A DNA stretch of 64,000 nucleotides from Ectocarpus siliculosus (Eukaryota > Sar > Phaeophyceae > Ectocarpales > Ectocarpaceae): contig FN648299.1 of the NCBI GenBank assembly GCA_000310025.1, positions 101,512 to 165,511 on the forward strand, given 5' to 3'. Shown here in pieces: positions 2,630-52,675 of this stretch; positions within the stretch are counted from its first letter, which is position 1, and each line of letters begins with the position of its first letter. Under the pieces are notes generated by a model. That model had not been told where the DNA came from. It did not search any database and saw only the letters and a program-made list of their open reading frames with translations. A program made the position numbers and the translations under genes.

Positions 2630-5027
2630 AAGCGGGGATCGCGGACATGCCCGCCATAGCTTCGAGGGATCTGGCTACTTGTGCATTTGTGCGATTCACA
2701 ACAACTTTCTTTCTAGTCTGCCATAGCATCGTTGTTTATGATGCATGTCGTGTTATTTATTCGACAATTGTTCGTTTCGTGACTTTCGTTCCAGGCATCG
2801 GCCGTGCTTCGAAAGGGCGTCTTTCATCTGCCATTGATGACGCGGGGAACTGGCCTCACGGTCGCTAGTTGCTGTTGGTGGTGTGGTTCTTGCTGGGCCG
2901 TGGTTGTCGTCCGCACTGCTACTGTTACTGTTGTCGGTGATGGTGGGGGTGGCGGTGTCGTCGAGATCGTCGTCGTAGTCGCAGTCGTTGTTGTCGTGGT
3001 CATCGTCGTCGTCATTGTCGTTTAGATGCCCGTTTCGTGATATTAACTCAAGACTTGTTCGGGTCGGGTCTTAGTGCGTGACGACAGCATGAGTCCGACA
3101 GCGTTTAGGTGAGGACTGACGAACACATTTCCGCCGACTGACAAATCAGCGCTCTTTAGTGTTTCGCAGGTCTATTGGGTGAAAAAGAGACTGATTTTGA
3201 CAGCCCCGTAACGTGTTTCACGTGTTTGAAGACTGGGCTACAACGTACGGGCGAAATAGTTTCTTCCGGCATTGAGCCTTCACTTCGAGAGTGGTTCTGG
3301 ACTATTCTCAGCAATATTGTGCTTTTTCTCAAAATCGATCGGAGCATTGTTAATATTTTCTTCTACCTAACCTCCTTTCTCCAGTGCAAGAAATTCGCTT
3401 CCATGCGTGCGCTTCACACTTCGAGATATGCCTGCCTGCACCCGGGGGATACTCCACTACGATCTAACGAGTGTGGCTTAGTTCCTACCGCTATCCATCC
3501 CGTCGTCGATAAACCGACCAAAACACATCTATGTACCAGCGCCTGTAAAGTTTCCATGAAGCGGAAGATTACCAACATTTCAACATTTCAAGGAGCGGTC
3601 CAACACCCCGACCCCCTGCTTTGAACCACTCACGCGCCACGTCCCATGGCGTTGCCCACTCCTCTCCCCTGATTACTCTCAGATCGTGGAAGCGTTTTAC
3701 TTAGCGGTCCTGCTTCTACTGGACGACGACCCCGTCGCCGTTTCCTTTTCTCTCACAACGCAGAGCACGAGGAGTAGTCCACCGCTACCGGCGGAGGACT
3801 CCCCCTCCCGTCGCTCGTGGGGCGTCGGGCCCACCGCCCTCCCTCGACAGAAGAGGCGGAAGCCTGCCTGGGTGGCGACTCCACCGGCGGTGGTTTGTGG
3901 GTGGGGTGTCGCAGACTCGGTAGAAGCGGGTGGGGGTGGTTGTTGTCTTCTTCCGGATCCTCGGCGACGCTCGGTTCGTACACGAGGACCTTGCTGCAGT
4001 CCATCGCCGGCTGGACCCGAATGCTGCGCGACTACTCGCCACGGTGTCAATCATGCGCGCGCGGGGGGGGGTCGGGCGACTTTGTCTATCAAACGTGTTT
4101 CTACATGTACATTCCGCTACCATCGTCTGAAACGTGTGTGTGTCGTCATCTTATTCGTTGTAGGTGTTGAAGTTCAAATCTTGTGGTTTGGTGTTTTTTG
4201 GGTACACCGACCGGGGTCACACGAGAGAAATGTCATACAGGAGCTTCGCATTGAATGTACTTCACTTCTTTCTGAGAATGCAACACTGCGATTTAGCGTA
4301 ACTTGTGGGGCTCCTGTTGCCAGATACTGAACGACTGGTTTGCCATAGTTTTTGGCCGGGGTGAAAACCCCGCGCGAGTTTTTCTGGCGAGGTTATGTGA
4401 GTTTTGTCAGCATTGGGAGAAACAGTAAAAGAAACAGAATGGACACGTAAACCTCGTGTTTGCCAATACTGGACGATGAAATGCAGGGCGATATCCTCTT
4501 TTGAAACTTCCATGTGTCTCCGGAGCGGAGGTTTTGTTTTTGTTTTGAGACCGACAAGACCGCACGGAAGGCTGACGCATTATTACCGTACGAGCGACTG
4601 CAATACATGAGGCGGCTGGAATGAAAAGAATGAATCTGCAACCCGTGAGATCGCTGAATCTAGCGCGACCAACCCCGCGAATAGACTTCGATTCCTCCCC
4701 AAGCGTTAAAATGCTCGCCTGGGGGATGCGTATGCGTGAGATATCGTTATCTCACATCGCATGGGGTCGTTCAGAAGGGGTCCGAGTAGCTGGCTAGCAT
4801 GTGTTTTCACTTCCAACGCGCTTCGAAGCACGAAACACGTCCCCCCCGAACGGATGTGGCACGTTGAACATCAGCGCCAAACGACAGTCTACAGAGCGAG
4901 GAACCCATCGTGGCTGTCAAGAACTGACTGGCCGCAGAACGCGAAACCTCGACAAGACGAGAAGATCATTCTACATCATAAAAAAGATACGGCAGAAATT
5001 CCACGAGCGCCCAAACGTTGGTGTAGA
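2630..5027. other. Intergenic region between convergent genes
   Basis: The low-complexity gene (+) ends on the left and the membrane-protein gene (-) ends on the right, so this interval should hold their 3' UTRs. A TCGTCG/GTTGTC-rich stretch lies at about 2935-3025. GC rises at 3690-4060 and several frames are open there. On the minus strand a Pro/Ser-rich frame ending at 3753 (peptide VYEPSVAEDPEEDNN) looks coding-like. A plus-strand frame (RFVHEDLAAVHRRLDPNAA) looks similar. I cannot choose between them. Nothing else is supported. Confidence 0.4.
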
Positions 5028-22900: not shown

Positions 22901-24618
22901 GTGGAAGGGACTGGTTCAGGGAGCGTTCCTCAAACAGCTCCAACATACGTAAAGTCCGAGCGGTGAGTCTGTACTTATGTACCAGGTATAGCCGCCCTCC
23001 AACTAGTGTACGTTGCATGTACGTACCTGCTCTTGTTCCGAAACTGCTCTTGTTACGAAACATGTATGTCGAGACGCGTCGACCCAGACGTCCCCATATA
23101 TTGCCTCCTACCTTTCGCTACTTTTTCTACCTGCAGGATGCCAAGCAATCGGGGCCTGCAGCACCACCCCCAACGTCGCTAGCCATCACATAGGCATGGA
23201 AATCTGCGTGTTGTAAGGAGCGGGAGACAGCCCTTGGCCAATCAGAAATAAATGAGGGCGCGATATTCATTCAGAGGTGTTTTTTGTCTTAGCTGTGACC
23301 TGTCGTCAGCACTCGAACGAGTCAGCGTGGGTGGCCAGGTTTATTGTCTTCCAGTCGATATTCTTTCCTGGCGAGCAGATATGTAGATGCGGCGCAAATT
23401 TATTCCAATTCCGATGAATGTGCAGGCGGGGTCACGACGATGGACACAACGACCAACGACCGGATAGGGGTGCCGTAGATACTATACCCAACACGATTCG
23501 CCGCATCCGCCCACACCGCCCACGAGCATGTGCCACACATCGCCTTGGCATACGGCAACACGACGGATAGGTCAGCTACTTACGTGTAAAGTAGTCCAGG
23601 CCCTTCCTGCCTTGGTTGTTGCACAAAGAGAACGCGAATGAACGAATGAATGCCTGCTTTTGTTTTCCCCCGCAACTCTCTCTTTGTACGTGTTTTCTCG
23701 TGTCATCTACGAAGGCTGCACTTGCCCCGTCGGAGAGTACGCGCTGTTTGCTGCCTGACGAGCACGCAATAAGGAATTCTCAGCACAGACCGGAAATTTA
23801 TTTCGGCCCCAAACCGGAGGGTGTTGCCACACACTTCGCGCCCGCCGCATAAGGTGCGTGCGTGGTGTATTATTATGTGGAGATGTCGAGCCTTCGGATC
23901 ATGGTACAGCAGATGATGCAGCGCTTCCATCATATTTCGTTGGGGTTAGGGATCAGCAAAGCTGCGCGATCCTTGCGCGTTGCGGTTTGGTCATCCCACT
24001 GTGATCCGTTTCTGTCCAGCTCAACTCATCTCAGCTTCACCTACAGGTTCTCTAACTTGTCTTGTTGGTGCCAGGCGGCACCTGGGACGAAGTTTTCTAC
24101 TTGAAGTAGTCTATCCACTGCTGTATTTCAGTTGGTATCTTTTTCCGAATATGGTGATCTCCATGTCGGAACAACGCTGGAGGCACTTAACCTTTTCTCA
24201 TAAAGCTTGCCGGTGAGACGTGTGAACCACGCTTGCTGCTTTCCGGTCGCTAGACTGCGCGATGATCTAAGAGCTTCCAATACCCGAGGTCCTACGAGCA
24301 CCGTAACGGGGACATATTGAAGTGGTTAGTGAAGGCGACAAAAATTGGCGAGGTCTAGCCACACGACCTTGGAGAAGTCGAAGCTACGCAACGTGCAATT
24401 TGCTCGGACAACCTTCTCGTGATTTGGATGGACAAAGCATCCAGGCATGGACAACGGCCAGGCAGTGGAATGTGGTGTGCCATGCGCCTTCTGACACCTG
24501 TTATTTTTTGCCCACAGGCTGGCGGGAAACATGTTCAAGAAACCGCTTGTCGCCCTACCCCATTTCTCTGGTCGTGTGCACGTGGGTGCGTGAATGATTG
24601 TGTGCTTGATGTTAACAG
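19956..24618. other. Long interval without a convincing gene
   Basis: The first ~1.2 kb is T/G-rich, with long T runs and hydrophobic open frames typical of a translated UTR, and is probably the 3' UTR and downstream flank of the PH gene. A GGTGGT-type microsatellite lies at 21280-21340 and a GA-rich tract at 22783-22808. A possible acceptor at 23136 precedes a short frame DAKQSGPAAPPPTSLAIT ending in TAG, but no partner exon was found. The missing 5' end of the ROCO locus (initiator exon and LRR N-cap) should lie in the last 1-2 kb but could not be recognised. Confidence 0.4.
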
Positions 24619-24690
24619 GGTATATCCCCAAGGAACTGGGAGCTCTCTGCCGGCTGAGGACGCTTTAGCTCGCCAAGAATCGGTTCGAAG
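24481..24690 (+). repeat. Duplicated intron-plus-LRR-exon unit, copy 1
   Basis: This ~210-bp stretch aligns with 25546-25745 over the 3' debris of an LRR exon (CACAGGCTGGCGG.AACATG), a ~75-bp intron and a complete LRR exon. Copy 1 carries the TAG. It suggests the array grew by duplication of exon plus flanking intron rather than of the exon alone. Confidence 0.6.
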
Positions 24691-25745
24691 GTGGGCTACG
24701 TTGACCTCGTAATCTCTGTTCCCGACTTTTGTGTTCAACGAGTATCACAAATACACCTGTTACATGCTTGGAAGTATCACGTTGGATTGGGTGGGCGGGA
24801 GGTTGGATTGGGTGGGTGGGAATGGTGGGCCCGTGGGTCCGCGGGTCCTTGGGTTGCACAATATGCCGATGCTATTTGGAAATGTTAGGGTAAGAGGTTG
24901 AAGAACCACATAACAAAAATGTCCCTGAATCCAACTTCTGTTACCCCCTGTATTTCTAGAATGTCCGTTTCAACGACTTGAGTGGAGTGCAAGGAGAGTT
25001 TGGGTCGTTCAATCCCAAGGTTGTTTTCATTTTCTTCGTTCGCGTCTTGGACAGGCACGATACCGGAAGAGCTCGGAAATCTGTCCGGGCTGGTCGTACT
25101 TGACCTGAGAGGAAACGAACTGAGCGGTGAGGGAAGCGCCAAAGCACCACATTTGCTGTTACATTGTTCCAGAACTGGTGGGGAAACATATCTTCCCTGT
25201 ATCTTCCGGTCATTCAGGTTCGATGCCCGTTTTCACTATGCGATTCTGCAGGCAGCGTTTCCGTGCAGTTTGGAGCCCTGACTACGCTGGAGGAACTTCA
25301 CCTTTCCTCCAATATTCTGACGTGTAAGAGGCGTAGATCACGTTTTACGCTTTTCGATCGCTAGACAGCCAGCTGCTCGGAGCTCCCAGCACCTGCAGGC
25401 GTGGACATGCAGAACGTGATTTGTCAGCGGGATTCACTCACAAAATTGTCACGGAAATCGAAGCTGCCCAAACTTGTGGTGTTTACCTGTTTACAGCACT
25501 CACGCCTGCGACACTTTCAGGTACTGGAATACCGTGCGTTACGCGCCTATTGAACACCCGTTTTTTCCACAGGTTGGCGGCTACATGCTCCGCAAACCGT
25601 TTTGCTGCCTCACTCCGCTTCTTCTCTCATCGTATGTACGTGTAATAGTTGTGATCGTGTACGTGATGCCCAGGGCCTATCCCGAAGGAGCTGGAAACTC
25701 TCAGCAAGCTCAGGACGCTTGAACTCGCTAACAATCGGCTCACAG
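24619..25745 (+). other. LRR exon array: four 72-nt exons, one repeat each
   Basis: Exons 24619-24690, 25055-25126, 25252-25323 and 25674-25745 are each exactly 72 nt, in phase 1 at both ends, and each codes for one 24-residue plant-type LRR. Examples are TIPEELGNLSGLVVLDLRGN and PIPKELETLSKLRTLELANN. The first has TAG in place of the Glu codon of the LxL strand (RTL-stop-LAKNRFE). LRR-like debris between them includes 24529-24553 (LAGNMFK), 24956-24983 (RFNDLSG) and about 25369-25395. The identical size and phase mean any exon can be gained, lost or reordered without changing the reading frame. Confidence 0.85.
25546..25745 (+). repeat. Duplicated intron-plus-LRR-exon unit, copy 2
   Basis: Partner of 24481-24690. 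Here the LRR exon is intact (LRTLELANNRLT), with good acceptor GATGCCCAG and donor CACAG|GTGAGG. Confidence 0.6.
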
Positions 25746-26097
25746 GTGAGGTCGTTACGTGACGTACTTACTATTCATGCTCATCCCCGACTTGGGGTTT
25801 CACTCCCCGTCTGTCTCTAGTTGTGTCTGCCGTACTGACGCGAGCGCGATTCCACGCGAGTTGTCGTTCGGGTATTTCCCTCGTAGCGTTGATGAGCATG
25901 TGGATGCTGATCAAGCAATATGCATGGCATGAGCCGGGAAGGGTGCGACGTGTCCCCCTTTGCTGCGCAACGGCGGTACTCCTAATACAGAACGGCCATG
26001 TTCCGAGGCTTGGACGATGGTCTTGAGGTGCAATATCGATGTCACTGAGTATTTCTGGCCGATGCAACGTGAACTCTTCGCTTTTACGGTCTTGCAG

Positions 26098-27549
26098 ACA
26101 GCCCCGGAGATACCGCGGAAAGGTTAGTCGAAGTATCCGCGAACACGCTGATCAACTTAAGCGGGAACCGATGGGAGATCCCCCGGTTGGGGGTCACCCA
26201 AGGCGGTTGGGAACAGGTTGTCAGGTACTACGACGAGCTGGCCCAGTCCGGGGGCGTTGTGGTGACGGGTCTGAAGGTTGTGCTCGTGGGTGCGGTTCAT
26301 GCTGGCAAGACAACCCTGGCCCGGGGCCTCCTAGAAGGAGATGTACCTCAAACGCCTCCGCCTAGAACCAGGGGCGTCGATGTGCATGTTCACCCTTGGG
26401 TACCTGACTTCAACCCGGCGCTTGACGTCATGATCTGGGATTTCGCTGGGCATGATGCCTACTGCTCGGCGCATCATGTTAGTTTATGAGATTAATGTGT
26501 TCTACCTTTGCCGTGCCGGAGTCTGTGCTTTTGGCACGTCAGTTTCATCCGAGCATTGCGGGGTGCAAGGATGTGAGATTGATTGTGTCTCGGGACAAGT
26601 TGCGGGCGTCGTAAAAATATTACGCGTTGTTGGATAGTTGAACCTCGTGCGTATCACAAACGCCATTCCGTTGACCCCCTCTGATCCCTCCCGCTTTCGT
26701 TCCCCGGCAGCTGTTTCTCGCCGTCGGGGCACTGCACCTGCTCGTGGGGGACCTCCACATGTTTAGCCAAGATCCTTTGTCGAAGAAGAACGCGGTGTAC
26801 ATGTGGCTGGATTCGTTGCTCTGTCGGGTGCCAGGGAGCGCTGTTCTCGTCGTGGCAACGCGCGCGGATGCCTTCGTTGACAACAGCGAGGGAGCCTCTA
26901 CCCTAGAAAGCCCGGAAGAAGCGATCAAGACGCACCTGGAGCAAACAAAGAAAGTACATGTCATCGCTTCTCCGTACGTGGCAGTAGCCTCTGTGACTCT
27001 TCCAGGGTCTCGCTTTTTCAAACATTGTTTGTCCTGCATCTCAAATATACTTCTATATTCACAGTAATGACTGACCGCCGAGACTATCAAGAACCGTCAA
27101 CGGGCATTCCAGAGAGGTGGTTCAAACGCTGATACTTTGTTGGAGCGCCCACCGTCGCCTCCGCCCTCGCTCTGGCTGTGCGGATTCATCTCGATCTGCG
27201 GCCGCAGCTCGGACGGCATGGCGTCGCTCAAGAAGAAGATCTGCGACGTCATTCAGGAGCCAGGCACCGATAACTTCGCGTTCCCGGACCTCCGTCAACA
27301 TGTCCCAACCTCTTGGAGGAGGGTGCGGGCGGTCATGATGCACTCCACGTCGGGGCAGACCTAAAGCAGGCGGCTCGGCTAGAAGGCCCCATCGTTCCGC
27401 TTGAAGGGTGCGAAAAACTTGAGTTTGTGAAGCGGAAAGACGCCTTTGAGGCGTGGTTATTGGCGGACAGCCAATGGGCGAAATAAGTTGGTATTTTGAA
27501 GGCCTCTGGAAGGTTCAACACGCAAAACGAGGCTTCACAGCTCTTTCAG
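26098..27549 (+). other. Roc GTPase domain and start of COR (three exons, frameshifted)
   Basis: Exon 26098-26477 carries the LRR C-cap/linker (INLSGNRWEIP), then the P-loop GAVHAGKTTLA and switch-II IWDFAGHDAY. Exon 26711-26953 starts LFLAVGALHLLVGDL and carries VVATRADAF, the G4 position. The third exon begins near 27091, after a weak acceptor, and reads LWLCGFISICGRSSDGM then FAFPDLRQHVPTSW, the Roc-COR boundary. The frame is lost near 27340: the homologous continuation GADLKQAARLEGP is in another frame. It then meets TAA at 27484-27486 after WLLADSQWAK, before a donor TTTCAG|GTAAGG. Confidence 0.8.
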
Positions 27550-28094
27550 GTAAGGCGGTGCCTTAGTGAAAGCATTGAAGTCCAGCTTCCGTTCACAGGT
27601 GCGTTCTAGTTGGGATCCCTGTTATGCGGACACCCGCGGGACCCGGATGTTGATCCAAGGTGTACGTTGAGGCACACGATTCCCTGAGGTATATGCAAAA
27701 TTCCACGCCATTTGAAGTTCGAAGTTTCAGCGCTGTCGGTTTTCGACGTCTCGAGGTGCATGTCTGTGTAGATCCACGTTTACCTGTGCTAGAAGGCCGA
27801 CCCTCTTGTTGACGTTGTACGTTACACGTTCCCCCTGTTTCGTTAAAACTAGAGCCAATCCTTGCCGCACCATACCGCGCGGGGTTAGGTCCTTCCGTGC
27901 CGTGACAGCCTGCGTATCGTACCGTCAAGACAGAGAACCGTCCTGGCAAACGCTGTCGAGCAAAAATAGCTAGTGGTAATTTCGTACGTCGGCTGCCGCA
28001 GCGTCAGAAAGGGCCTGCCTCTACGGTTCCTCTCTTAACACATGCGAATCTCAACTTACGAATTACCGTTCTACCCATGTGCCATTTTTATCAG

Positions 28095-30157
28095 GATGCG
28101 CTCAGTCTACTGCAGGTTCGTGGAGCGGCACTGGTGGCATGTGATCTCATACACCTGAAGCCGTCGTGGATCAACAGTCTGCTGCGAGAAGTGCTGGATC
28201 ACAACCTAGCGGATCCGACAAAGGTAGGACCATTTACGTCCCAGTTTTTAATGTTCTACGGTTTCTCCATCTCACACTACACCGACAATGCCCCCGAATG
28301 AATGACTATGAGTTTTCACTCTTTTTCGTGAGGTGGGAACTCCCGCCTAAAGCCAGTCCAGGGGTCGTATTTTTGTTCGCTTTCTCGTGTTGTGATACGC
28401 CCAAGCCGCGCAAACTGGCCTGGTAAACAAGAAGGCCAGATCACCGGGAGGTCACACGGTGAGAAGGCATACCCGCAATGCAGCTTGAAAGTTCCACTCT
28501 CACCGTCTCAAACTCCGCGTTTTTTGTTGGAAAGGGCCCTTTGGAGTCGCCAGGAAAAGGTGAAACATTGTTCCATGTAGCATCATCTACCTACTCACCA
28601 GGCTTGCTGGGTAGGAGCAAGGGTCAGAGTTTCCGGAGAATGGCGGCGACAACTTTAGTATTGATGATTCCTCTCTATGTTGTTGTAAATCCAGGACAAG
28701 TGGTGGCGGGGGGAACTAGAGGAGTACCATCGTGAGCATGGCATCGTGTTCAACAGGCTCATTAAGGCCCGCAGGTATGGTTAGCTCTATTTGTGACGAT
28801 CGATGGTTTGAACTGTTGGCATTGCGTGCTCGCACCAAATAGCACATGAGGTTCCAAGAGGTTCTAGAAATCAGATGGAGTCATGGGAAAGCCCGCAGCA
28901 CATCAGCTCCCCTGCTGCTTAACGGCCAGTTCTCTCATGCGTTGCACTATTGTGGTTAAAAGGTTTTATGTGTGCCAAGCACGGGGCGTTTATCGGTACG
29001 CGAATTCGAGTGCTATCGGTGCTATCGACATATAAATGACTGACACGAACCGGGTCCCATGCTCGTCAACGTCGGCACGGTCTGCTTGAGGCGTAAATGT
29101 AATCCACAAACGAGCTTGGCAGAATGTTTCTCGCAGGGAAAGGTTGGACTTGCTCTCAAGGAGTGATGCCTTCTTGTTGCTGCGCATCCGCGGCCGCCGC
29201 GAAGAGTTGCTGCTGTACAGTAGGGTCGGATCGGGATGTTGGTACAATAAGGAAGACCCGCGGCCTATGAAGACAGGGGTGTGCAGCTGTGTACAACTGT
29301 CGCGGAGGCAGTAACAGGTGCCACCAAAGGTGGGATGGGAGAAGATGTTGTTGAGGAACTGCACCACGTCCTGAGGCCGGATTCGCCGCCAAAAGGGCGG
29401 CGACGAGCTGATTCGGAAAATGTTGCAGTCCTTCAACGCGGGAAGAAATCCTGCTCCGATCAACTTGTTCCGGTGTGCATCATTATCGACCTCCTGCTCA
29501 CAGAAATTTTCCCGACCTCCCACTCACAGAAAGTACGTCATATCGGGGATGCCATGCGTGGAGTATCTTGCTTCCTCTGGCGGAAGGTCGTGACGGTCGT
29601 CGACGACGAGGTCTTCTGCAGCCTGGTCGAGACCTTGGCTCTGCACGACGTCATGTTCCTGTTCGATGACGACGGGAATCAGGGAAGGGTGGGAGATCTT
29701 ATGGTACCCGCTCGGCTGCCAGGGAGCGTCTCAGAGGCCTCCCTCGCTATGCTGAAGCAAGCAGTCTCCCAGGGCACCCGGATGCAGTTCGCGATCGACG
29801 CCGAGTACGTCCCGCCGGCGATTATCCCGCTGTTCCTCGGCGGTTTCTGCCGCAGGGAAAACATTGTGTTTCGTGCCTGCTGGACCAGGGGGCTGGCGTT
29901 CATGATGAGCGGCCAGGAAGGCCTGGTGCGCCTCGAGGAGGCTGGCACTGGGCCCCGACGAGCGATCGAGATTAGCATCGCGGGCCCTTACATGAAGGAC
30001 GTGTCTGAGGTTGGGTTCTGTGCTCAGGGCAGCATGGAAAAACTCTTGGAGCTACCCGGGGCTGCAGTTCGATGCTTCGGCTGATCCCACCGAAGGGAAA
30101 GGGGAAGAAGCTTGGCAGGACAGTCTGAAGGGCCTCCGAGGGGACTTGTTCGAAAAG
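28095..30157 (+). other. COR domain exons
   Basis: Exon 28095-28223 (43 codons) reads LVACDLIHLKPSWINSLLRE, the COR segment that follows Roc. Exon 28695-28774 reads WWRGELEEYHREHGIVFNRL. Exon 29530-30157 carries FLWRKVVTVVDDEVF and QFAIDAEYVPPAIIPLFLGG, the C-terminal COR lobe. The frame breaks near 30045: upstream reads MEKLLELPG, while the homologous continuation YPGLQFDASADPTEGKGE lies in the next frame and runs to donor AAAAG|GTGTTG. The 28774/29530 junction is not phase-compatible, so a small exon or a lesion is missing there. Confidence 0.7.
28990..29523 (-). other. Antisense open frame in ROCO intron
   Basis: A 177-codon open frame on the minus strand fills most of the intron between COR exons 28695-28774 and 29530-30157. 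It has no repeat-like composition and no domain I recognise. The plus strand is also open over 29281-30084, which includes the coding exon. It may be chance or a degenerate insertion. Confidence 0.2.
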
Positions 30158-30545
30158 GTGTTGACCTAGGCATTTTCTGTCCTTACCTTAGTGGCGTGTA
30201 CTTTCGTACTCAACGGTGGTTGGAAATGGTGATGATGACCATTCTACCGTGCATGCTTTTATTTACCCTTCTTCTCGCGTATATCCACCTCACGTGACGA
30301 GTGAGGTACACATCTCGAGGCGAGGAACTTGTTTTTTCTGTTCACGAGTAACGCCTGTGGCAGATGGTTTGCTGCGTTTCATCGATTTTTGTTTTATCTT
30401 GGCCGGGAAATCCTATGAGTGGTAGCAGGGAAGTAGGCGATTCTCTGCATTTTTTATTTCAACATCATCTGTGCAACTCGAAGCGAGCGCGTAACTCCAA
30501 AAATATTGTCAATGTCCTCGTACCTATTGGCCCGGTCTCGTGCAG

Positions 30546-32226
30546 CTCGATCTGAAAGTGGAGGCCATGCTCAAGAGAATTCTTGAATCTCTCAGAGCTA
30601 AAAGCCTGGGCCTCGACGAGGCCCTGGCCAACAGGCTCAGCTGACTGCGCTCCGACGAGCAGCTGGACATGGGCTGCCAGTTGGACGCGACGAAACAGGA
30701 TATTGTGCTCCGCGTCGAAGAGGAAGCCGGGGACAAACTGGGGCCGACAAGTGGCGCGGGTATCGGAGGGTTGGGCCAGACGGAGAGAAAAGTTCTGACC
30801 AGCATCGCGCGAAAATAATTCGAAAGAATAGGGTGCCGTGTCAGGTTTGACGCCCTGTTTACTTGCGAACAGCCAGCGACCTACACAAGCTCATATTCCC
30901 GACCGCAACATCGAAGATACGGGTCAAAGACGGGGTTCGCGCTGAGTACGTCTTTCTGCGTTGGAATGCGCAGGTGGCCGATCCCCCGCCTAGTTTGCTT
31001 GCTCCCCGCCCCAGACAGCGGGGAACCAGCCCTGACGGCGGAACAAAGATCGTTCGATCATTTGTCAGACGCTCTGCAGCAGTGGTGCCTCAGCAAGAAG
31101 GCCAAGGGCAGGAGGCTGGCCACGCGGAAGCTTCGCCTGTTCTTCCTCTGCTCGAAGGACTACAGCCTCGCCGTGTGCGGGCCGGGGGGGCAAGGGTACG
31201 AGGTGCGCAAAGTCGCACGTTGTGAATTGTTTTTATATGCCTGTCCTCTCCAGCGGCTCCGGCGACGATTTTCTCGGTTACCCACACAGCTTCCGAGAGC
31301 AGGTGCTGAAAGCTTGGAAGTCGAAAGCGAGCGACTCTTTGTCGTCCCATGTGTGTAGAAAGACTAACCTTCTCGCATCGGGCGACGTGCAACCTCTTTC
31401 TCCCTCGTATGTATGGGTTGATCAGGTAACAGAGCTGCTCAACTGGGCAAAGAAAGCAAAGCCGGCGGCCAAGGTCGGGCTGGCCGTCGTCTCGATCGCC
31501 CTGAAGGTTTGCACCGGCCTGGCAATCCCCAGAATGGACTTTGACGCAGCCTTCGGGGCGACAACGGGCGATGTCGTGGCCGGGGTAGTCGAGGAAGCGG
31601 CAACCTCGAGCATCGATTCCATGATCAGTGCCGCGGGAGGCAGAATCGAGAGCGGTGGGCGGACGGAACGGCTCGAGCACGCTGGCGTGAACGCTCGCGC
31701 GATGGAAAAGGTGCAGCAAGTTCGGGCCGAGGCTCGCCGCTTTTTCGCATCCGAGGCTGCTTGACATTCAATCATCCGAATTAGCGGTCCGAAAGCGGGC
31801 TGCAGAGCGAACAACAGTTTTCTTATATTTTCGGTTCGTGTCTTGTTGTTCGGACGGGCTACGCAGGCCGTGTCACGCCGACCGGGCGTGCCGAGCCCAA
31901 TACCGTAGACGACACTGCAAAAGAGGATGACACCTGCGCTTGATGAGTCTCGCCCGCCGTTCGTTCTCATGTATGCCCCTGCGCGTACGGATTGACGCTT
32001 TCCGCATCCCGGCTTCCATGTGAGGCCCCTCCCGCTGGAAGGTTTCCAATACGATCAACTCAAGGAAGTGGTCAAGAGCTTCGAGGTGAACGGAACGCCA
32101 AAGGGTAGTTCTCCGTTCCCCAGTTTCGACACCGCCATGCAGCTACAGGACAGAGGCGGGGACGCAATAGAATGGGCGAGGGTCAGCAACGGTAACATTG
32201 ATGACTTCGTGACTCCACTACGTTAG
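30546..32226 (+). other. ROCO C-terminal region
   Basis: Exon 30546 onward encodes a helical segment (LKVEAMLKRILESLRAKS) broken by TGA 30642-30644 and TAA 30816-30818. A stretch LHKLIFPTATSKIRVKDGV follows. Exon 30974-31202 reads LRLFFLCSKDYSLAVCGPGG. Exon 31426-31764 reads VGLAVVSIALKVCTGLAIP then FDAAFGATTGDVVAG. A last exon near 32020-32226 ends FDTAMQLQDRGG...WARVSNGNIDDF and TAG. Fold and function of this tail are unknown. Phases 31202/31426 match exactly, but the last exon would have to be reached from before the TGA at 31762. Confidence 0.55.
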
Positions 32227-34538
32227 TGCGCGTTCCTTCACTGCAGTTCAAGAAGTTTCTGATGGGGTTCATCCGTTCAGTGCTGTGCTGTCGTTGGCAA
32301 TGTCTGGTTTTCTTCAGCAGTATGTCGAACATTCATCTACTCGCTAAGGTAAAGCGAGGTTTTGTACGGAGGGATCCGTGTTGTTCCATGGCCTCGCATT
32401 GTGACCACGGGGTGGAGTAAACGGCACTAGTGCTGTGAGCGCTGATTTGAAGTGAAGACAAAGAGAAGAAAAAAACCAAATGTGGCCAGCTCTCGTTGAA
32501 CTTTTGTAGCAGCATTCACTGCACCAGAAGGTAACATAGGTCGTATGCAAAGACGTACTCACTCGTATAATGGGAGGATATGCAGTTCTGATCGGTTTTT
32601 CACGGAACAACGGCTTATTGCTTGGGCGGTGTTGGGGCAAGGCACCAACGTAGCAATCCCTCTATGCACACTCATGTTCAGGGAGGTTTCTTGTAGGCGC
32701 AGACAGAAAAAACGTTGTTTGTTGAAAACCTTCGAGTTGTCCCACCGTGTTTGTGGGGTTCGTGGATAAAGTATCATGTAGTACGGGACCCCCAGCACGA
32801 GAGGGTTATCTCGGATCACTCTGCCGAAGTCAATTGTTCATGTAGAGAGAATAAGCGCAGTATTGAATCTATCTCCAGCAACAGGCTTCCTTTGTTCGTG
32901 TGACAGGTTCGCAGACTCATAAAAATCTCGGTAGATCTCGTGTGGCCTACAGTAATTGCACTTCGATGCGATTGGCCGCAGTGACTAACTACGAGGAGAT
33001 TGCGGAGCACTAGGGGATCCGCAAAGGGTGCAGGTAGCCTTTCGGCAAACCCGAGCCCTCCTCGATCGGCTTCGCAGCCTACAAATTCAGAGCATTTCTA
33101 CGAGTCGTTTAGTTGCCGTATTGTCGCCGACAAAATGCAGGAACACAAATAACGGCGCAAACCAAACTATCAATATCAATTTTTCCCTCGATTTTCCTCC
33201 CAGGTCGGAGGCGGGAACAATACATTTGTACGTCCGAATGGTCCAAAACTCTTCCACCGCGGCGAGCATCATGGCATCACGCCCCCCCCCCCCCCCCCAT
33301 GTTTTTCGCCAGCAGTCTCAATAGCATTCGGCATCAAGTCTTACGTCTATTCCCAAATCACACGTTGCTGTCGTGGATGGTGTATGTAGTCGACGGATCA
33401 ATAACGAAAATTGAAGAAATCAGCGGGACATCATCCCAACAGGAACTCCCAGAGCATAGCGAAAGGTATGATATTCCAAGGGAGTCCTGTTACATAACGA
33501 GTGAAACACAGACATGGGCAAGGCAAGAAGGACCTCGCTCGTCACGTTCATCGTACTCACAAACTATGCAGCGTCCGGAGGCCCCGTAGATCAACACTCT
33601 AAGGATACCCCCCAAATAAACCTATCTTTGTAAGTTGCTGCTGGGCTACTCAGGTATATACGTACTCGAGGTGATGAGACCCGAGCCTTGGGCTTTCCAA
33701 GAGGTGATGCGTTCAGCAAATCCGTTTGAAAGCCAAAGCAAGCAGGGAAAGGATAATGAAGCAGGAGTGCGAACACAAGCTATCGCCGTACAACCGTCAA
33801 ACGCAGGGAAGGAATGTAGTCTAATCACCGTCGGGATTCCTCTAAGACCAGGGCAATCCCCACCGAACCACCCACCCAGCCCCACCCGCTCACGAGGCGT
33901 GAAGAAAACTGAGAGCAACAACCACGAACTGCCAAACACAATTCATTGACCGCCGACCGGCCGGAAGAAAATCAACTACAAGTAGCTCTATCCTAGGCAT
34001 CTCCACACGCTCCGTCCATCCAGCCTCCCACCCACCAGGCAACACCCCCTTCCGCCAACGTTTGGGTGGGCGAGGGTGGATAGTCAGGGCACATGAATGG
34101 GCGGTACATACCATGCTTGCACTCCACTCTCTTTACAGACAGACTAGGACCAAATGAACATAAAGGAAAATGTCTTGTAATGTGATGACAAGAGGCGAAC
34201 ACGAGACTGAGAGACGTTCGGACGAGCTGGGCAGAAACGTGCCGCGCAGAGAGAACGAAGACCAACACAAGGCATGTACATGCATGGATAGGCAAAACAA
34301 GCACCAGCCTAGAGTCAACTATTGTTTGGGATTTTGGCTGTTCATGGCGTCGCGGTACCAGGCAAGAAAGGAAGTGAGGGAGAGAGAGAACCCCTCGATA
34401 TACGCTCGCTGCGGTGCCGATGTTGAAGCTTCGCCGCCACCGCCGCCACCATAGCTCACCCCCGGCCCCACCCGCGGCGCTGCCCACACGCCTGGTTGTT
34501 CATCCTTCACGTTGTTCACACAGAACGTTGCGAGCTCT
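32227..34538. other. Interval between ROCO pseudogene and first SET gene
   Basis: Contains a truncated SINE 3' domain (32400-32476) and a poly-C run (33283-33298). Right of 33960 is the likely 3' UTR and flank of the minus-strand SET gene. Open frames here lack splice support or domain similarity. No other gene is supported. Confidence 0.4.
32400..32476 (+). mobile_element. SINE 3' fragment
   Basis: GTGACCACGGGGTGGAGTAA followed by ACGGCACTAGTGCTGTGAGC and GCTGATTTGAAGTGAAGAC, ending in an A-rich tail. It matches the 3' domain of the full element at 52690-53006 and the inverted copy at 47631-47747. 5'-truncated, as is typical of retroposed copies. Confidence 0.75.
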
Positions 34539-35683
34539 TTATACGATGCCGTGTTCCTCAGCCCAAGTTTTCACGGCGCCGGTGAGGGGCGGGGACCCCG
34601 TCGCACCCCCATCGATGTACTCCTCCTGCTCGGCCCGAGAAAGGTTTGAGAAGCCCGACACCCAGCCTCTGCACCTGACCGCGCCGCATTGGCAGTCGAA
34701 GGGACACGTCATGTCGATCTCCATGGCATTGTAGTCGATCGTCAGCAATTCGCTAGGCTGGACTCGGGGCGCCCGGACCGTCACACGCAGGTACGGCTGT
34801 TCCTGCGAGTTGCAGTCGGTGATTGTAACATGGAGCGACAGTTAGTGCTGCACTTGTTTTTGGGGGTGGAGAACTTGAGACGTGTGCATGCCCCGTTTCA
34901 ATTTCACAGACGGGTTTCGGATGTGCCCCGGACCTCCAACGCACACAGGGGGAATCGTCGTCATGAGTAGCGCGGGGAAATTCAAGGCCAGTGCGAACTC
35001 CTCCCGTGAACACCGCAGCTTGTTCTCATCCCGTTACCGAGATACACGGGCCGGCAAAGACGTCCGGCCGTCATCGTGTTGGAGAGGGGACTTGTGCCTG
35101 TACCTCCATGCAAGGTTCGCTTCGCGCGTCACAGGATTGACTGAGTCTGGGTAAATGTCGCGCACGTCTTGTCATCACGTTTTTCACACACAACCAAGGC
35201 CTTGTCCTACTTTGTATCGCGCCATCGGGAATATGACCCGCCAGCCAGATGCCACTCCAGAGGAAGACTTCCGTGTGTATGTCTCTCCTATGAAAAACAC
35301 GCCGTCCCCTGACCGACATAGTTCCGGTGTCCCATTCCCATGCTTATCTTGCCATAGGCTGACATTGGGTTGCTAACTACAGTACGCTTCCTCTGAAGGT
35401 TGGGGGTGGGGGGCGAGGCTACACGAGTGTGAGTTCGACGTGTCTGGGATGCTTACTCACCGCCGTGTCCACCACCTCCAGCTGACAGTTGGGCTCACAG
35501 GAATGGTTCATGAGTACGAGGTTACCCCCGGCTTCCAGGTGCCGCTCTTTGCTGACCTGCACGCTGTGCCGCGTTTTCACGCCCGTGACCAAGCCTTCCA
35601 CTCGAGCGAACAGCACCCGGTTCTCCTCCAGCACACGTGCTGCCACAAGGAACTTCTCCGTTCCGTCCTCTACAACGGTGAAA

Positions 35684-35720
<37 letters not shown>

Positions 35721-36940
35721 TGACTGGAGAGCCGGCGGCAACGAACTCGTTCGGGCTAGCAAGCGAAGAGAACCGAGCACCCGGATACGTGTTCCAGGCC
35801 GGGTTTGGAGGTCTCCCGGCTGCTTTGAGGGCCATCGACGCGCCGGCGATCCTCGGCGAAGGTGTCGGCCCCGGCCGAGTAGCGCGATCATCCGTGAACA
35901 GAAGACGGCTTCGCGAGGATGATAGTGCCCCGATCAGGGAGCCGCTGGCTTGCCACCCTGTGCGGCATCGGCGGGCCAAAGCGAGGGTGTGCATCGCCAT
36001 CCCCGCTACCCACTTGTCAAGCTGCGGCCCTTGTTGCAAACTGCAGTCGACGAACCCGTCCGTGGAAGCAGCCTGAGCCGCCGGGGGAAAGGCAGCGAAG
36101 CATGGTACACGAGAACGCAAACCGGGGGGCAGGTACTAAGAGGACGTCCTTTTCTATTGTGCGAGGCACGCGGATGTGAAACTTTTCTCGTGCTTGGGTG
36201 TTATCATGGTAGACTCGTCGTTCCTCTATTATTTTCGTTCAAACGTTTCTTCATTCAATCCAAGCTGTCTACGACGACAACGCGCATGAAGAAGAGCCGG
36301 CTTCGACCCCACACCGTGCGCGCGCGCGTGAGAAGTGACGAGAAGGAGAGGAGGGTGAAGAGGTTGATAGGTGTATCGCGCAAAGCGGTGGCTTATGTAG
36401 AGATAGCTCTCTCCAGTACCGAAGCACCGCACACATTCATGTACCATGTACTTTGTAGCTGAATCTTTCGGCGTTTAGCAGACCACGGCAATCCGCTAAA
36501 TAGTCGCCCCAGCGGTACCCTCGCAAACTTCTGGCGTTTGGATATATGTGTGTTCGAAATCACGGGGCAGTCACACCAACTGGGGTTTTGGCTCACGCTA
36601 CGCCCAAACAACTGTGGGTAGCGATTGGCCGTTTTATGCTTACCTGGCAACACACCGTGGACTAGGGCGCTGCCATCGACAGATCCCTTCTCGCTCCAAA
36701 ATTTCAGGCAAGCATTGCAAGCTGGGGCACATGCCCGGGCTACATCAACAACTTAATGCGAACTGAACCGTGCTCCGGACACGATTCCTGGGTTTCGCAT
36801 GAGCGTTGTACGTGGATACCATAGAAAAATATTACGCGCTCAAGGAGGATACGGAAAGGCCGGACAACAAAGTCAAAATTCGGGGTCGAGACTCAATTTT
36901 TCTTTCGTCGAGCACCTACAGTATGAACATATCGAATGCA
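34400..36940. repeat. Segmental duplication, copy 1
   Basis: This block aligns with 50290-52675 in the same orientation. It includes the whole SET gene, its downstream flank, and upstream non-coding sequence (for example CTTTGTAGCTGAATC at 36449 against CTATGTAGCTGAATC at 52196, and CTCGCAAACTTCTGGC in both). Coding exons are the best conserved; the intron differs in length (658 against 499 bp). Confidence 0.85.
34539..35994 (-). CDS. SET-domain protein, paralogue 1
   Basis: Two exons, 35994-35461 and 34802-34539, joined in phase 0 (ACGGCG|GTGAGT; AACTCGCAG|GAACAG). Product 265 residues. The N-terminus [20 protein letters not shown] is Arg-rich without acidic residues, like a mitochondrial presequence (inference). 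A poly-Ser run from a GCT/AGC microsatellite (about 35689-35720) precedes the catalytic part. The SET signature [14 protein letters not shown] is near residue 165. [13 protein letters not shown] supplies the conserved Tyr region, and [14 protein letters not shown] is a post-SET-like Cys cluster. These residues form the S-adenosylmethionine and lysine pockets in SET methyltransferases; the substrate is unknown. The domain is short and lacks pre-SET. The start was chosen because Met 35992-35994 is the one conserved in paralogue 2, where the preceding in-frame Met codon is ATA. The frame is open upstream to 36120. Confidence 0.8.
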
Positions 36941-49259: not shown

Positions 49260-49520
49260 TCCGGCCCCTCTTCTTCCTTCCTTCCTCCTCCTCCTCCTCC
49301 TCCTCCTCCACCTCTTCATTCTCCCTTTTTCCTCCTCCTATAACTCNNNNNNNNNNNNNNNNNNNNNNNNNNNNNNNNNNNNNNNNNNNNNNNNNNNNNN
49401 NNNNNNNNNNNNNNNNNNNNNNNNNNNNNNNNNNNNNNNNNNNNNNCTCCTCCTCCTCCTCCTCCTCCTCCTCCTCCTCATCTCCTCCTCCTCCTCCTCA
49501 TCTCCCCGTCCTCCTCGTCT
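49260..49520. repeat. CTC microsatellite interrupted by assembly gap
   Basis: CCT/CTC triplets flank both sides of the gap (49287-49346 and 49447-49505). The array is therefore longer than shown and its true length unknown. Confidence 0.95.
49347..49446. other. Assembly gap (100 N)
   Basis: Exactly 100 consecutive N, the conventional placeholder for a gap of unknown size. It lies within the CTC microsatellite. Confidence 1.
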
Positions 49521-50400: not shown

Positions 50401-51406
50401 ACAGCGTTGCAAGTCTCTTTATACAATGTTGTGTTCCTCAGCCCACATTTTCACGGCGCCGGTAAGGGACGGGGACCTCGTCGCACCCCCGTTGATATAC
50501 TCCTTCTGCTCGACCCGAGAAAGGTTTGAAAAGCCGGACACCAAGCCTCTGCATCTGACCGCGCCGCACTGGCACTCGAAGGGACACGACATGTCGATCT
50601 CCATGGCATTATAGTCGATCGTCAGCAATTCGTTCGGCTGGATTCGGGGCGCCCTGACCGTCACACGCAGGTACGGTTGTTCCTGCGGGTTGCAGAAGGT
50701 GTTTTATTGCATGCGCGCGGCGGTCATTGCTGCATTACTTTTCGAGGGTCGAGAACTTTAGGATTTCTATAACGCCTTTTCTGATCCCAATCGGGTTTGG
50801 ATTTGCCGATGACCTCCATCCAACCCATTCGTCCTGAGTAGTGCGGGGGAATTTAAGAACAATGTATCACGCGTACGTCTCCGTGAGATGCCACGTCGGG
50901 TGTTGGCATCTTGTTCTCATCCTGTCACCGAGATACACGGGCGGGAACGACGTCCCGCGGGGACATGGCCCGCCAGCCAGATGCGTTTCGAAATGAAGAT
51001 TCCGTGTAGAAGCCTCTCCTGCCAAACATCTCGTACCCTCACCGACCTATGTATGTTGGATATCTATCAGCGATGCGCCTATATGCTGTTCCATGCTTGG
51101 CTATAGCCATGGGCTGACATTGAACACAAGGGTGGGAAAGGGTGCACGTGTGAGTTCGACGTGTCTGGGATGCTTACTCACCGCCGCGTCCACCACCTCC
51201 AGCTGACAGTTGGGCTCGCATGAATGATTCAGGAATACGAGGTCACACCTGGCCTCCAGGTGTCGCCCTTTGCTGACCTGCACGCTGTGCCGCGTGCTCA
51301 CGCCCGTGACAAAGCCTTCCACTCGAGCGAAGATCGCCCGGTTCGCCTCCAGCACGCGTGCCGCGACGAGGAACTTCTCCGTCCCGTCCTCTACTACGGT
51401 GAAATC

Positions 51407-51440
<34 letters not shown>

Positions 51441-52675
51441 TTGCTGCTTCTGCTGCTGCTGCTGTTGCTGCTGCTGCTGAAGCCCACGGGGAACAGGGCT
51501 AACGCGTTGCCCTTGCCGCCTATTCCGCCGCCCCTCCCGCGGCTGACCAAGACTGCCGCATCGCCAGCAACGTACTCGTCGTTCGGGCCGGCAAGCGAAG
51601 AGAGCCAAGCACCCCGATACGTGCTCCAGGCCGGGCTTGAAGATGTCACGGTCGCTTTGGGAGCAATCGACGCGCCGGCAACCCTAGTCGACGGCGGTGG
51701 TCCTCCGTGCTCCTCTCCTCCCGGCCGAGTAGCGAGGTCGTCCGTGAAGAGAAGACGGTGTCGAGAGGATGGCAGTGCCCTGATCAGGGAGCCGCTGGCT
51801 TGCCACCCGGTGCCGCATCGTCGGGCCAAAGTGGGGGTGTGCATCGCTATCCCCGCTACCCACCTTGTCAAGCTGTCGCGCTTATTGCAACCTGCAGTCG
51901 TAGAATCCGTCCGTGGAAGCAGCGTGAGCCGCTGGGGGGAAAGGCTAGCCCTGCACCATACACGAGAACGCAAGCATGGGGGGCGCGCTAAGGGGACGTC
52001 CATAGTTCAAGCTGTCTACGACAACGCGCGTCAAACAGAACCGACCTCGACCCAAAACTGAGCGTGCGCGCCGGAAAAGTGACAAGAGGGGTGAAGAGAG
52101 CAAAAGGTGTACAGCGCAAAGGGATCACTTAAGTCGCTCTCTCCCGCAACGAAGCACCACACCCATATTAGTACCCATGTATGTATGAGCACACACTATG
52201 TAGCTGAATCGTTTGACTCTTTGTAGACCACGCCGAAGCACTGCTCGCCCCAGTTATGCCTCGCAAACTTCTGGCAGTTGGGATGGGTGTTTGAATCGTG
52301 ACGCAGTCACACGAACTGCGATTTTCGCTCACGCTACGCCCAAGCCAAGTGTGTGGCAACCGAGTGACAGGTGTGTACACACCCGTCAAGTCCACGGTCG
52401 ACGAGGGCGCTGCAAAAACTGTCCCTTCTCGCGCCAAAGGTTCAGGTTAGCACTATTTACATGAAGCACATGCCCGGGGTACCATCTTCACAACTTCGAA
52501 TAATTCCAACCGAATAACACGATTCTTGGGCTTTGTATGCGTTTCGTACGTGGAAACGATTGCAAGTTTCTACCCGCCCAAGGAGGACACAGAACGATCC
52601 CGAAACAAATAAGTATCAAACGTCGGGTCGAGGCTCAATTACTTCTTTCGTCGCCACCGTCGAGCACCTATGAAT
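50290..52675. repeat. Segmental duplication, copy 2
   Basis: Direct copy of 34400-36940, offset about 15.8 kb. The right edge coincides with the insertion point of the SINE at 52690. Confidence 0.85.
50419..51844 (-). CDS. SET-domain protein, paralogue 2
   Basis: Exons 51844-51182 and 50682-50419, joined in phase 0 exactly as in paralogue 1 (GCGGCG|GTGAGT). Product 308 residues. N-terminus [20 protein letters not shown]. Compared with paralogue 1 it has an extra stretch ([20 protein letters not shown]) and a longer Ser/Asn/Arg run from an expanded GCT/GTT microsatellite (51408-51480). The SET signature [27 protein letters not shown] and the Cys cluster [14 protein letters not shown] are intact. 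Differences from paralogue 1 in the SET part are few, so a recent duplication with coding constraint is likely. The frame is open upstream to 52003, but the Met used is the one shared by both copies. Methyl-acceptor unknown; organelle targeting is inferred from the Arg-rich N-terminus. Confidence 0.8.

Follow-up and report, generated by a model that had tools for sequence, protein, structure and literature searches.

Does an LRR-ROCO locus of a brown alga record, in its own bases, the reshuffling of LRR exons by which this receptor family is thought to diversify? Zambounis reportedly described, in 2012, brown algal LRR-ROCO genes whose 72-bp LRR exons are shuffled. The suspicion that LRR exon shuffling, perhaps somatic, diversifies brown algal receptors goes back to that year (PMC11378527, citing Zambounis 2012), and the main text of Teng 2024 (PMC11378527) describes brown algal exons of 72 bp carrying one LRR each, exon shuffling, and diversifying selection at positions 14, 16, 18 and 19. 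Frame-neutral reshuffling of 72-nt LRR exons in brown algae, as proposed in the original prediction for this DNA, is thus already published. We analysed a 64-kb stretch of Ectocarpus siliculosus (GCA_000310025.1, contig FN648299.1, positions 101,512 to 165,511), hereafter the window, together with related arrays elsewhere in the same genome.

The four LRR exons predicted for the window were confirmed. All lie on the plus strand as 72 nt between AG and GT, and each encodes one 23-residue LRR (Table 1). A split codon contributes its final two bases to the start of each exon, which makes the introns phase 1; the identical exon layout is named 'phase 2' in Teng 2024 (PMC11378527). The split codon and AG/GT borders of the single-LRR exons of brown algal LRR-ROCO genes are therefore present in 4/4 window exons. 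Each exon scored 10 in a motif scan, and 20 Markov versions of the window yielded two candidates at a score of 8 and none at 9 or 10. A profile scan of the whole window on both strands, with E values up to 10, returned those four exons and no others.

Table 1. Features of the LRR-ROCO locus, in window coordinates.
Feature	Position	Strand	Remarks
Duplication half 1	24171..24737	+	LRR exon 3' fragment (24171-24199), intron, LRR exon 1, following intron
LRR exon 1	24619..24690	+	72 nt, in-frame TAG at 24666-24668
LRR exon 2	25055..25126	+	72 nt, TIPEELGNLSGLVVLDLRGNELS
LRR exon 3	25252..25323	+	72 nt, SVSVQFGALTTLEELHLSSNILT; weakest match to the exon profile among the four
Duplication half 2	25281..25802	+	3' part of LRR exon 3, intron, LRR exon 4
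LRR exon 4	25674..25745	+	72 nt, PIPKELETLSKLRTLELANNRLT
Roc exon A	26098..26477	+	P-loop VGAVHAGKTT, WDFAGHDAY; open; 64% identical to C20 paralog, 62% to C9
Roc exon B	26711..26953	+	open; 62% identical to C20 paralog, 59% to C9
Exon C, after Roc	27071..27550	+	frame change near 27337; TAA at 27484-27486
COR-region exon D	28095..28223	+	open; 63% identical to C20 paralog
COR-region exon E	28695..28774	+	open; C9 paralog 46% over 28 aa, E 4.5e-5
Exon F, paralog-aligned part	29572..30163	+	frame change near 30050-30066
Exon G	30546..30815	+	in-frame TGA at 30642-30644; C20 and C9 paralogs open there
Exon H	30939..31211	+	55% identical to C20 paralog, 47% to C9
Exon I	31429..31763	+	about 53% identical to C20 paralog
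Last exon	31996..32226	+	ends with TAG 32224-32226; 54% identical to C20, 59% to C9

A duplicated exon-plus-intron unit had also been claimed, and its two halves align at 72.5% identity over 494 columns with a score of 123.5, where 100 shuffles reached at most 19.5. An ungapped repeat search mostly overlooked this duplication, detecting a 29-nt repeat, and gapped local alignment recovered it. Because the halves align in this register, LRR exon 1 is the duplicate of exon 4 and the debris at 24171 is the duplicate of exon 3. Exons 1 and 4 are mutual closest relatives, at 76%. With regard to further LRR exon fragments, the one at 24171 is clear, while the several fragments that had been described were not found. 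We conclude that the exon array of the window grew through ordinary tandem duplication and later died.

Downstream of the LRR exons, where Roc and COR exons had been predicted, the Roc assignment stood: Roc exon A matches Pfam Roc (PF08477) with 30.9 bits (E 3.5e-7, cut-off 27), and exon B, searched singly against Pfam, gave no match. For COR the picture is mixed: the Pfam COR model matched none of four window pieces, and a genome search for COR-A gave one match, on C17, and none in the window. According to the main text of Teng 2024 (PMC11378527), 18 of the 111 brown algal genes carry COR. The post-Roc exons of the window can be aligned to two ROCO paralogs (C20 and C9) down to the stop codon. 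The region of exon C is a single open frame in both paralogs, and the window copy shifts frame. An extra open piece (29138-29311, with TAA at 29312) lies outside the paralog alignment and may not belong to exon F. The TAG in LRR exon 1 and the further breaks downstream were unmentioned in the original prediction. A search of all 64 kb for an N-terminal cap exon found none (best E 0.091), and the same cap queries score at seven loci, two of them the query sources. In place of an open, complete gene with an N-terminal cap, the window thus holds a locus with stops, frame changes and no detected cap. Judged by its sequence, this locus is a decayed, isolated LRR-ROCO relic, a fossil of the receptor family and of little importance alone.

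The claim that reshuffling can be seen at base level in the window could not be upheld. Near-identical exons in a different order at other loci were found for 0/4 window LRR exons: none reaches 90% identity with an exon at the other sampled loci (top 69.4%). Moreover, a genome search at E 0.01 with the array DNA (24100-25800) found no match besides the locus itself, and the gene is broken. The same idea does hold at other loci, where identical exons recur in either orientation and on separate contigs, flanked by different neighbours.

These other loci were sampled as seven arrays (C4, C5, C11, C15, C26, C476 and C477), four used for discovery and three as later tests, from regions picked for matching Roc or LRR queries. 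Exons with a profile E above 1e-4 were left out of the counts. The arrays hold 122 LRR exons, on both strands. Their 111 counted junctions, all under 350 bp, comprise 60 direct, 26 head-to-head and 25 tail-to-tail arrangements (p 0.45 against random orientation, the three test arrays having been picked for mixed strands). HSP rows numbered 443 minus and 430 plus, and in a second set 473 minus and 511 plus. Orientation of the cassettes in these arrays looks random. In C4, antisense LRR exons are interspersed from the cap exon to the Roc exon of one gene. Roc adjoins the C5, C4 and C15 arrays and is separated from the main C11 array by about 7 kb that include an assembly gap, and the arrays C476, C477 and C234 are on contigs without Roc among the matches listed. 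As a control, strand was scored for 150 of 322 LRR candidates and 150 of 669 TPR candidates. Adjacent LRR matches were 48 same and 37 opposite in strand, versus 71 and 2 for TPR; after removal of 25 TPR matches in long open frames the latter became 54 and 2, both opposite pairs being at one place on C6. The Pfam TPR_10 matches, which we take to be NB-ARC-TPR exons, are clustered and repeat-coding like the LRR arrays, yet one-directional, and mixed strands as a general trait of repeat-coding exon clusters were rejected on this basis.

Exons are extensively shared between the arrays. For 86 of the 122, an exon at least 90% identical exists at another sampled locus, and 16 of the 22 identical 72-mer pairs are between loci. 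Near-identical copies have a median of 242 bp in common (65 pairs at least 90% identical), which defines the cassette; C11 and C15 share 252 bp at 100%, and 286 bp recur at 99% in opposite orientations within C4. Among cassette pairs at least 95% identical, which are not independent of one another, neighbours were conserved in just 2 of 150 comparisons, both belonging to one local inverted duplication. Since neighbours are so seldom in common, ordinary tandem growth was rejected as the main process in the live arrays. Frame and splice sites are intact in 40 of 43 sense and 24 of 28 antisense exons, a comparison biased towards intactness on either strand, since exons above the profile cut-off had been dropped. 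Of the three sense exons that are broken, one is interrupted by an assembly gap. Diversification, analysed with a cut-off of 1e-6, is strongest at four repeat codons, positions 14, 16, 18 and 19. The arrays thus resemble the published brown algal LRR-ROCO genes in their 72-bp exons, 23-residue LRR, frame layout and the same four codons. The published family also features many pseudogenes, LRR-only reservoirs and proposed somatic recombination, according to the main text of Teng 2024 (PMC11378527). That main text contains none of the terms antisense, orientation, opposite or palindrom, and its sole 'invert' is in 'invertebrates'; inverted exons may be reported in Zambounis 2012. Random orientation with intact silent exons is an unusual gene layout.

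We then considered the ends of the cassettes. These tend to lie at a near-palindromic RYGCRY core, mostly ACGCGT, ACGCAT/ATGCGT or ATGCAT, and 65 of 151 cores are perfect palindromes. Inward of the core lies a terminal motif that by consensus starts GCRTNGGC from both ends; it is well conserved at the exon 3' (tail) side only, as ATGAATCYCGCCGAYGC, and weak at the 5' (head) side. In the discovery arrays, RYGCRY occurred within 14 bases of 54% of homology endpoints versus 15.5% (388 endpoints, not mutually independent), and in the three test arrays the figures were 43% versus 14% (401 endpoints, likewise non-independent), or 24%, 51% and 51% versus 8%, 18% and 16% per array. The arrays therefore have at their cassette boundaries the common site that site-specific recombination calls for, and about half of the endpoints are without a nearby core. 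Cores were present at 50 of 65 (shuffled 27.6) and 35 of 47 (shuffled 19.7) junctions in the seven arrays. At nine other LRR loci, five one-directional and four mixed, the junctions showed no such excess (13 of 30 versus 15.2 shuffled). Longer palindromes at inverted junctions were unsupported, the median arm being 6 at direct, 7.5 at head-to-head and 5 at tail-to-tail junctions. In 90 cassettes with a core, the terminal 17 bp are alike across unrelated cassette families, and identity is at background from position 18.

The 16-base tail motif has 38 matches in the 189 Mb genome and its reversed control pattern has none. None of the 38 is more than 966 bp away from an LRR exon match, and the zone so defined covers 0.09% of the genome. 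Four of the arrays had served to derive the motif, so finding it in them carries no weight, whereas its absence elsewhere and its presence in unsampled arrays are informative; 15 of the 38 are in arrays beyond those sampled (C4:1891k, C4:4686k, C15:4025k, C16, C80 and C234). The mixed-strand locus L028 has no tail motif. For an exon-less linker module with similar ends, all 23 matches, a lower bound, are no farther than 1.2 kb from a match to an LRR exon.

Our preferred reading, to which we assign a probability of roughly 60%, is that the window gene has decayed and that elsewhere single cassettes are mobile through their near-symmetric ends, which are candidate joining sites. In the live process the 72-nt LRR exon would travel within a cassette, with single cassettes excised or copied and then joined again at the cores, whose near-symmetry would make joining indifferent to orientation. 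Cassettes landing in the orientation of the gene would be spliced in with the frame intact, reversed ones would form a silent, mostly intact reserve that a later flip could restore, and selection would diversify four residues per repeat. Against this reading stand the junctions and endpoints that have no core, the weak head motif, the modest share of perfect palindromes, the marginal excess of equal flanking 4-mers, the gaps in three arrays and the mixed-strand locus with no tail motif. A defined cassette, an end motif confined to the arrays and a near-symmetric core make the exon-shuffling idea testable.

The near-palindromic cores could also suggest that no dedicated sites exist, and that fragile palindromic introns often break and are repaired through end joining or microhomology, the motif reflecting common intron ancestry. 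Consistent with this, the core is missing from 26 of the 111 junctions, and ordinary duplication and inversion do happen, as in the inverted duplication of C26. However, common ancestry does not sit well with terminal motifs that are alike, up to an edge at 17-18 bp, although the inner introns are at background. The homology breaks near the same core in later-sampled arrays, the near-absence of conserved neighbours and the lack of a core excess at junctions of the nine other LRR loci also argue against it, and we regard this explanation as possible but rather unlikely.

Alternatively, the cassettes may be, or descend from, short non-autonomous TIR DNA transposons that captured an LRR exon and inserted into one another's ends, giving piled arrays in random orientation. 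TIR transposons and MITEs have similar ends in inverted orientation and small size. The cassettes are likewise small, exon-less linker modules occur among them, and their ends are alike by consensus, GCRTNGGC beginning both, strongly at the tail and weakly at the head. Their orientation looks random. Equal flanking 4-mers, as target-site duplication would give, occur in 25 of 67 cases versus 17.9 shuffled, a marginal excess (p 0.035; 6-mers p 0.0525), and a search for empty sites of cassettes found none. A transposon family would be expected elsewhere in the genome too, whereas tail motif and linker, the latter count being a lower bound, are seen in LRR exon arrays only. A dispersed transposon is disfavoured, with no matches to either outside LRR arrays, and we consider a transposon origin unlikely.

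The transposon-origin and somatic readings are versions of the preferred reading and are not exclusive of it. One somatic version, which we put forward as quite improbable, is a putative rearrangement system dedicated to immune-type receptors, which would move and flip cassettes while the alga lives and so give individuals or tissues different ROCO repertoires; if true, silent reversed cassettes and Roc-less arrays would be donors for such somatic repertoires. In bacterial shufflons and integron cassettes, a short common site bounds cassettes that are flipped or moved singly. Unlike these, the algal cassettes are eukaryotic and exon-carrying, their sites are degenerate and no recombinase is known. 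A very improbable reading is programmed somatic assembly of LRR cassettes in individual algae, like lamprey VLR or V(D)J joining. It would fit the silent yet intact cassettes that lie next to receptor genes in either orientation, the arrays on contigs without Roc among the matches listed, and diversification at four repeat codons. In the lamprey, VLR cassettes likewise flank the receptor gene in either orientation, as templates that are themselves not rearranged (PMC3308329, in the part bearing on cassette layout). The algal cassettes differ from these in being spliceable exons in or beside genes with their own Roc, and in having near-palindromic common ends. Against somatic assembly, the presence of identical cassettes on other contigs requires copying in the germline, and the main text of Teng 2024 (PMC11378527) states that neither somatically recombined ROCO loci nor site-specific recombinases nor clonal immune cells have been reported. 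That mixed orientation is an assembly artefact is hardly credible: gaps do occur in L029, L032 and L040 (two of four discovery arrays and one of three test arrays, the L040 gap lying inside an inverted duplication), but four of seven sampled stretches are gap-free, the counted junctions are short, TPR matches of the same assembly are one-directional, and the breakpoints obey a sequence rule.

Profile searches of both strands of the window recovered four LRR exons at the LRR-ROCO locus (24619-32226) and none beyond these. As the original prediction had it, they are of 72 nt, share one frame layout and precede Roc exons, and its coordinates were good. COR exons had also been called. Exons 3' of Roc do align with the ROCO paralogs on contigs C20 and C9 of the same genome, as far as the stop at 32224-32226, but no COR model matched at the locus.

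Exons of the LRR-ROCO locus in window coordinates
Feature	Position	Strand	Remarks
LRR exon 1	24619-24690	+	72 nt, AG/GT ends, split-codon layout common to all four
LRR exon 2	25055-25126	+	72 nt, AG/GT ends, split-codon layout common to all four
LRR exon 3	25252-25323	+	72 nt, AG/GT ends, split-codon layout common to all four
LRR exon 4	25674-25745	+	72 nt, AG/GT ends, split-codon layout common to all four
Two Roc exons, open, 3' of LRR exons	26098-26477, 26711-26953	+	First above Pfam's Roc cut-off

The gene is dead. A TAG lies inside LRR exon 1 at 24666, and relative to the C20 and C9 paralogs, which are open there, the window copy shifts frame near 27337 and again near 30050-30066 and has stops at 27484 (TAA) and 30642 (TGA). 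Queries that match seven loci, including the two from which they were taken, detected no N-terminal cap exon across the window's 64 kb (best E 0.091). The locus had been read as exon shuffling caught in progress, to be checked by finding near-identical exons elsewhere; at any other sampled locus, however, the best matches of its four exons reach 62.5-69.4% identity, and at E 0.01 the array DNA matches only itself in the genome. LRR exons 1 and 4 are mutual closest relatives (76%), which is explained by a tandem duplication, 24171-24737 against 25281-25802, 72.5% identical in a gapped alignment. The exon debris was correctly seen but is an ordinary result of this duplication, the fragment at 24171 being the twin of LRR exon 3. 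By these comparisons the locus did not arise through recent exon exchange; the family has been published, and this member is an ordinary relic. Downstream of it, a stretch at 32359-32481 (-) resembles DNA near the C9 ROCO copy (L024, complement) at about 54-70% in translated comparison, possibly a shared repeat. Two similar open frames, 35419-36135 (-) and 51101-52006 (-), also lie downstream and have the same 27-residue ending or nearly so; they resemble part of a SET-type domain. An assembly gap, a run of 100 N, occupies 49347-49446.

Genome searches with Roc and LRR queries turned up further loci. Seven arrays on C11, C5, C4, C15, C26, C476 and C477 (loci L029, L032, L033, L037 and L040-L042) hold 122 LRR exons, interleaved on both strands. 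When exons were compared with 300-bp flanks, shared units emerged with a median length of 242 bp (10-90%: 195-287; 65 pairs with 90% identity or more across 180 bp or longer), comprising about 91 bp before the exon and 68 bp after it. These cassettes cross between divergent ROCO genes: C11 and C15, whose Roc segments are 42% identical, share one at 100% identity over 252 bp. Within C4, two cassettes in opposite orientation are 99% identical over 286 bp. For 86 of the 122 exons, a second sampled locus holds a copy that is 90% identical or better, and 16 of the 22 identical exon pairs are between loci. Among cassettes matching each other at 95% or more over 162 bp, 2 of 150 comparisons show the same neighbours, and a single local inverted duplication accounts for both.

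A cap exon and a Roc exon on one strand flank the C4 array; therefore, its reversed exons fall within the span of one gene. Four arrays have a known Roc strand, and among their 71 exons frame and splice sites are kept in 40 of 43 in sense orientation and 24 of 28 in antisense (Fisher p 0.42); four Roc searches, which are lower bounds, gave no match on C476, C477 or C234. Junctions between exons are direct in 60 of 111 cases, head-head (5' sides joined) in 26 and tail-tail in 25, and cassette orientation looks random. Assembly error is unlikely as a general cause of the mixed strands, because TPR matches in the same genome are one-directional (of neighbours within 1 kb, 71 are on the same strand and 2 on the opposite one, or 54 and 2 without 25 matches that share one long open frame, against 48 and 37 for LRR exon matches) and because four of the seven fetched stretches are free of gaps. 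It could nevertheless shape single places such as C26. There, in L040 (C26:5006500-5011500), exons 1583-3061 form a local inverted duplication in which cassettes -1583, -1891 and -2081 reappear as +2531, +2271 and +3061, with paired exons 99-100% identical; a scaffolding error is possible because an assembly gap (1662-1761) sits in one arm.

Near-palindromes recur at cassette ends in alignments and junction listings, such as GATGAATCTCGCCGATGCATCGGCGAGATTCAT at a tail-tail join in C5, where the listing reads ATGAATGAATCTCGCCGATGCATCGGCGAGATTCATAC. Of the 388 endpoints of homology that fall outside exons in C11, C5, C4 and C15, 54% are no more than 14 bases from a RYGCRY core, versus 15.5% of random inter-exon positions. 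For the three arrays fetched later the figures are 43% of 401 endpoints versus 14%, or singly 24%, 51% and 51% versus 8%, 18% and 16%. The rule holds in each array and covers about half of the endpoints, fewer in C26. Cassettes of different families are alike over their last 17 bp and fall to background identity from position 18 (3671 pairs among 90 core-bearing cassettes; the search pattern fixes or partly fixes the first four positions and leaves 5-17 free), with weaker likeness at the head than at the tail. The 16-base tail motif, derived from four arrays, has 38 matches in 189 Mb, all 966 bp or less from an LRR exon match and 15 of them in arrays outside the fetched DNA; the reversed pattern has none. 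All 23 matches of an exon-less linker with similar ends lie no more than 1.2 kb from an LRR exon match. Allowing up to three mismatches, the tail motif occurs in 10 of 11 mixed-strand loci (the exception being L028) and in neither the window nor four other one-directional loci (Fisher p 0.0014, post hoc).

Selection was assessed in 237 cassette pairs, not independent of one another, whose flanks are 85% or more identical. Flank divergence is 7.1%, with pS 0.064 and pN 0.079. Amino-acid changes peak at codons 14, 16, 18 and 19 (157, 116, 150 and 138 pairs), followed by codons 13 (52) and 21 (40); mean change at the four peaks is 59%, versus an expectation of about 20% if codons changed in any way at the flank rate. 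These are the same four LRR repeat sites for which Teng et al. 2024 (PMC11378527) report positive selection. Between loci, pN is 0.081 for pairs in the same orientation and 0.080 for opposite ones; the 16 opposite pairs that share a locus have a slightly smaller value, 0.064.

Exons of 72 bp with one LRR each are described in the same paper, as are exon shuffling, alternative splicing, pseudogenes and LRR-only sequences as a possible reservoir; it states that somatic recombinant ROCO loci and a site-specific recombinase are both unreported. No description of the cassette layout was found in the literature searched, the founding paper (Zambounis 2012) lying outside that search. The arrays combine shared units, shared tail ends, core-enriched breakpoints, random orientation and lost neighbours. 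Single cassettes are probably cut or copied and rejoined at the near-symmetric core; splicing would be limited to sense cassettes, and reversed ones would form a silent reserve. This layout, reached by following the window relic, makes the shuffling hypothesis directly testable.

Three other mixed-strand loci, L025 (C483), L034 (C4:4926000-4935999) and L035 (C31), have few or degraded tail motifs and several broken exons, and look like ageing arrays, intermediate loci. Genome search alone gave more LRR exon or end-motif matches at C80:31515-31945, C16:1128000-1133000 and C13:1390000-1448000.
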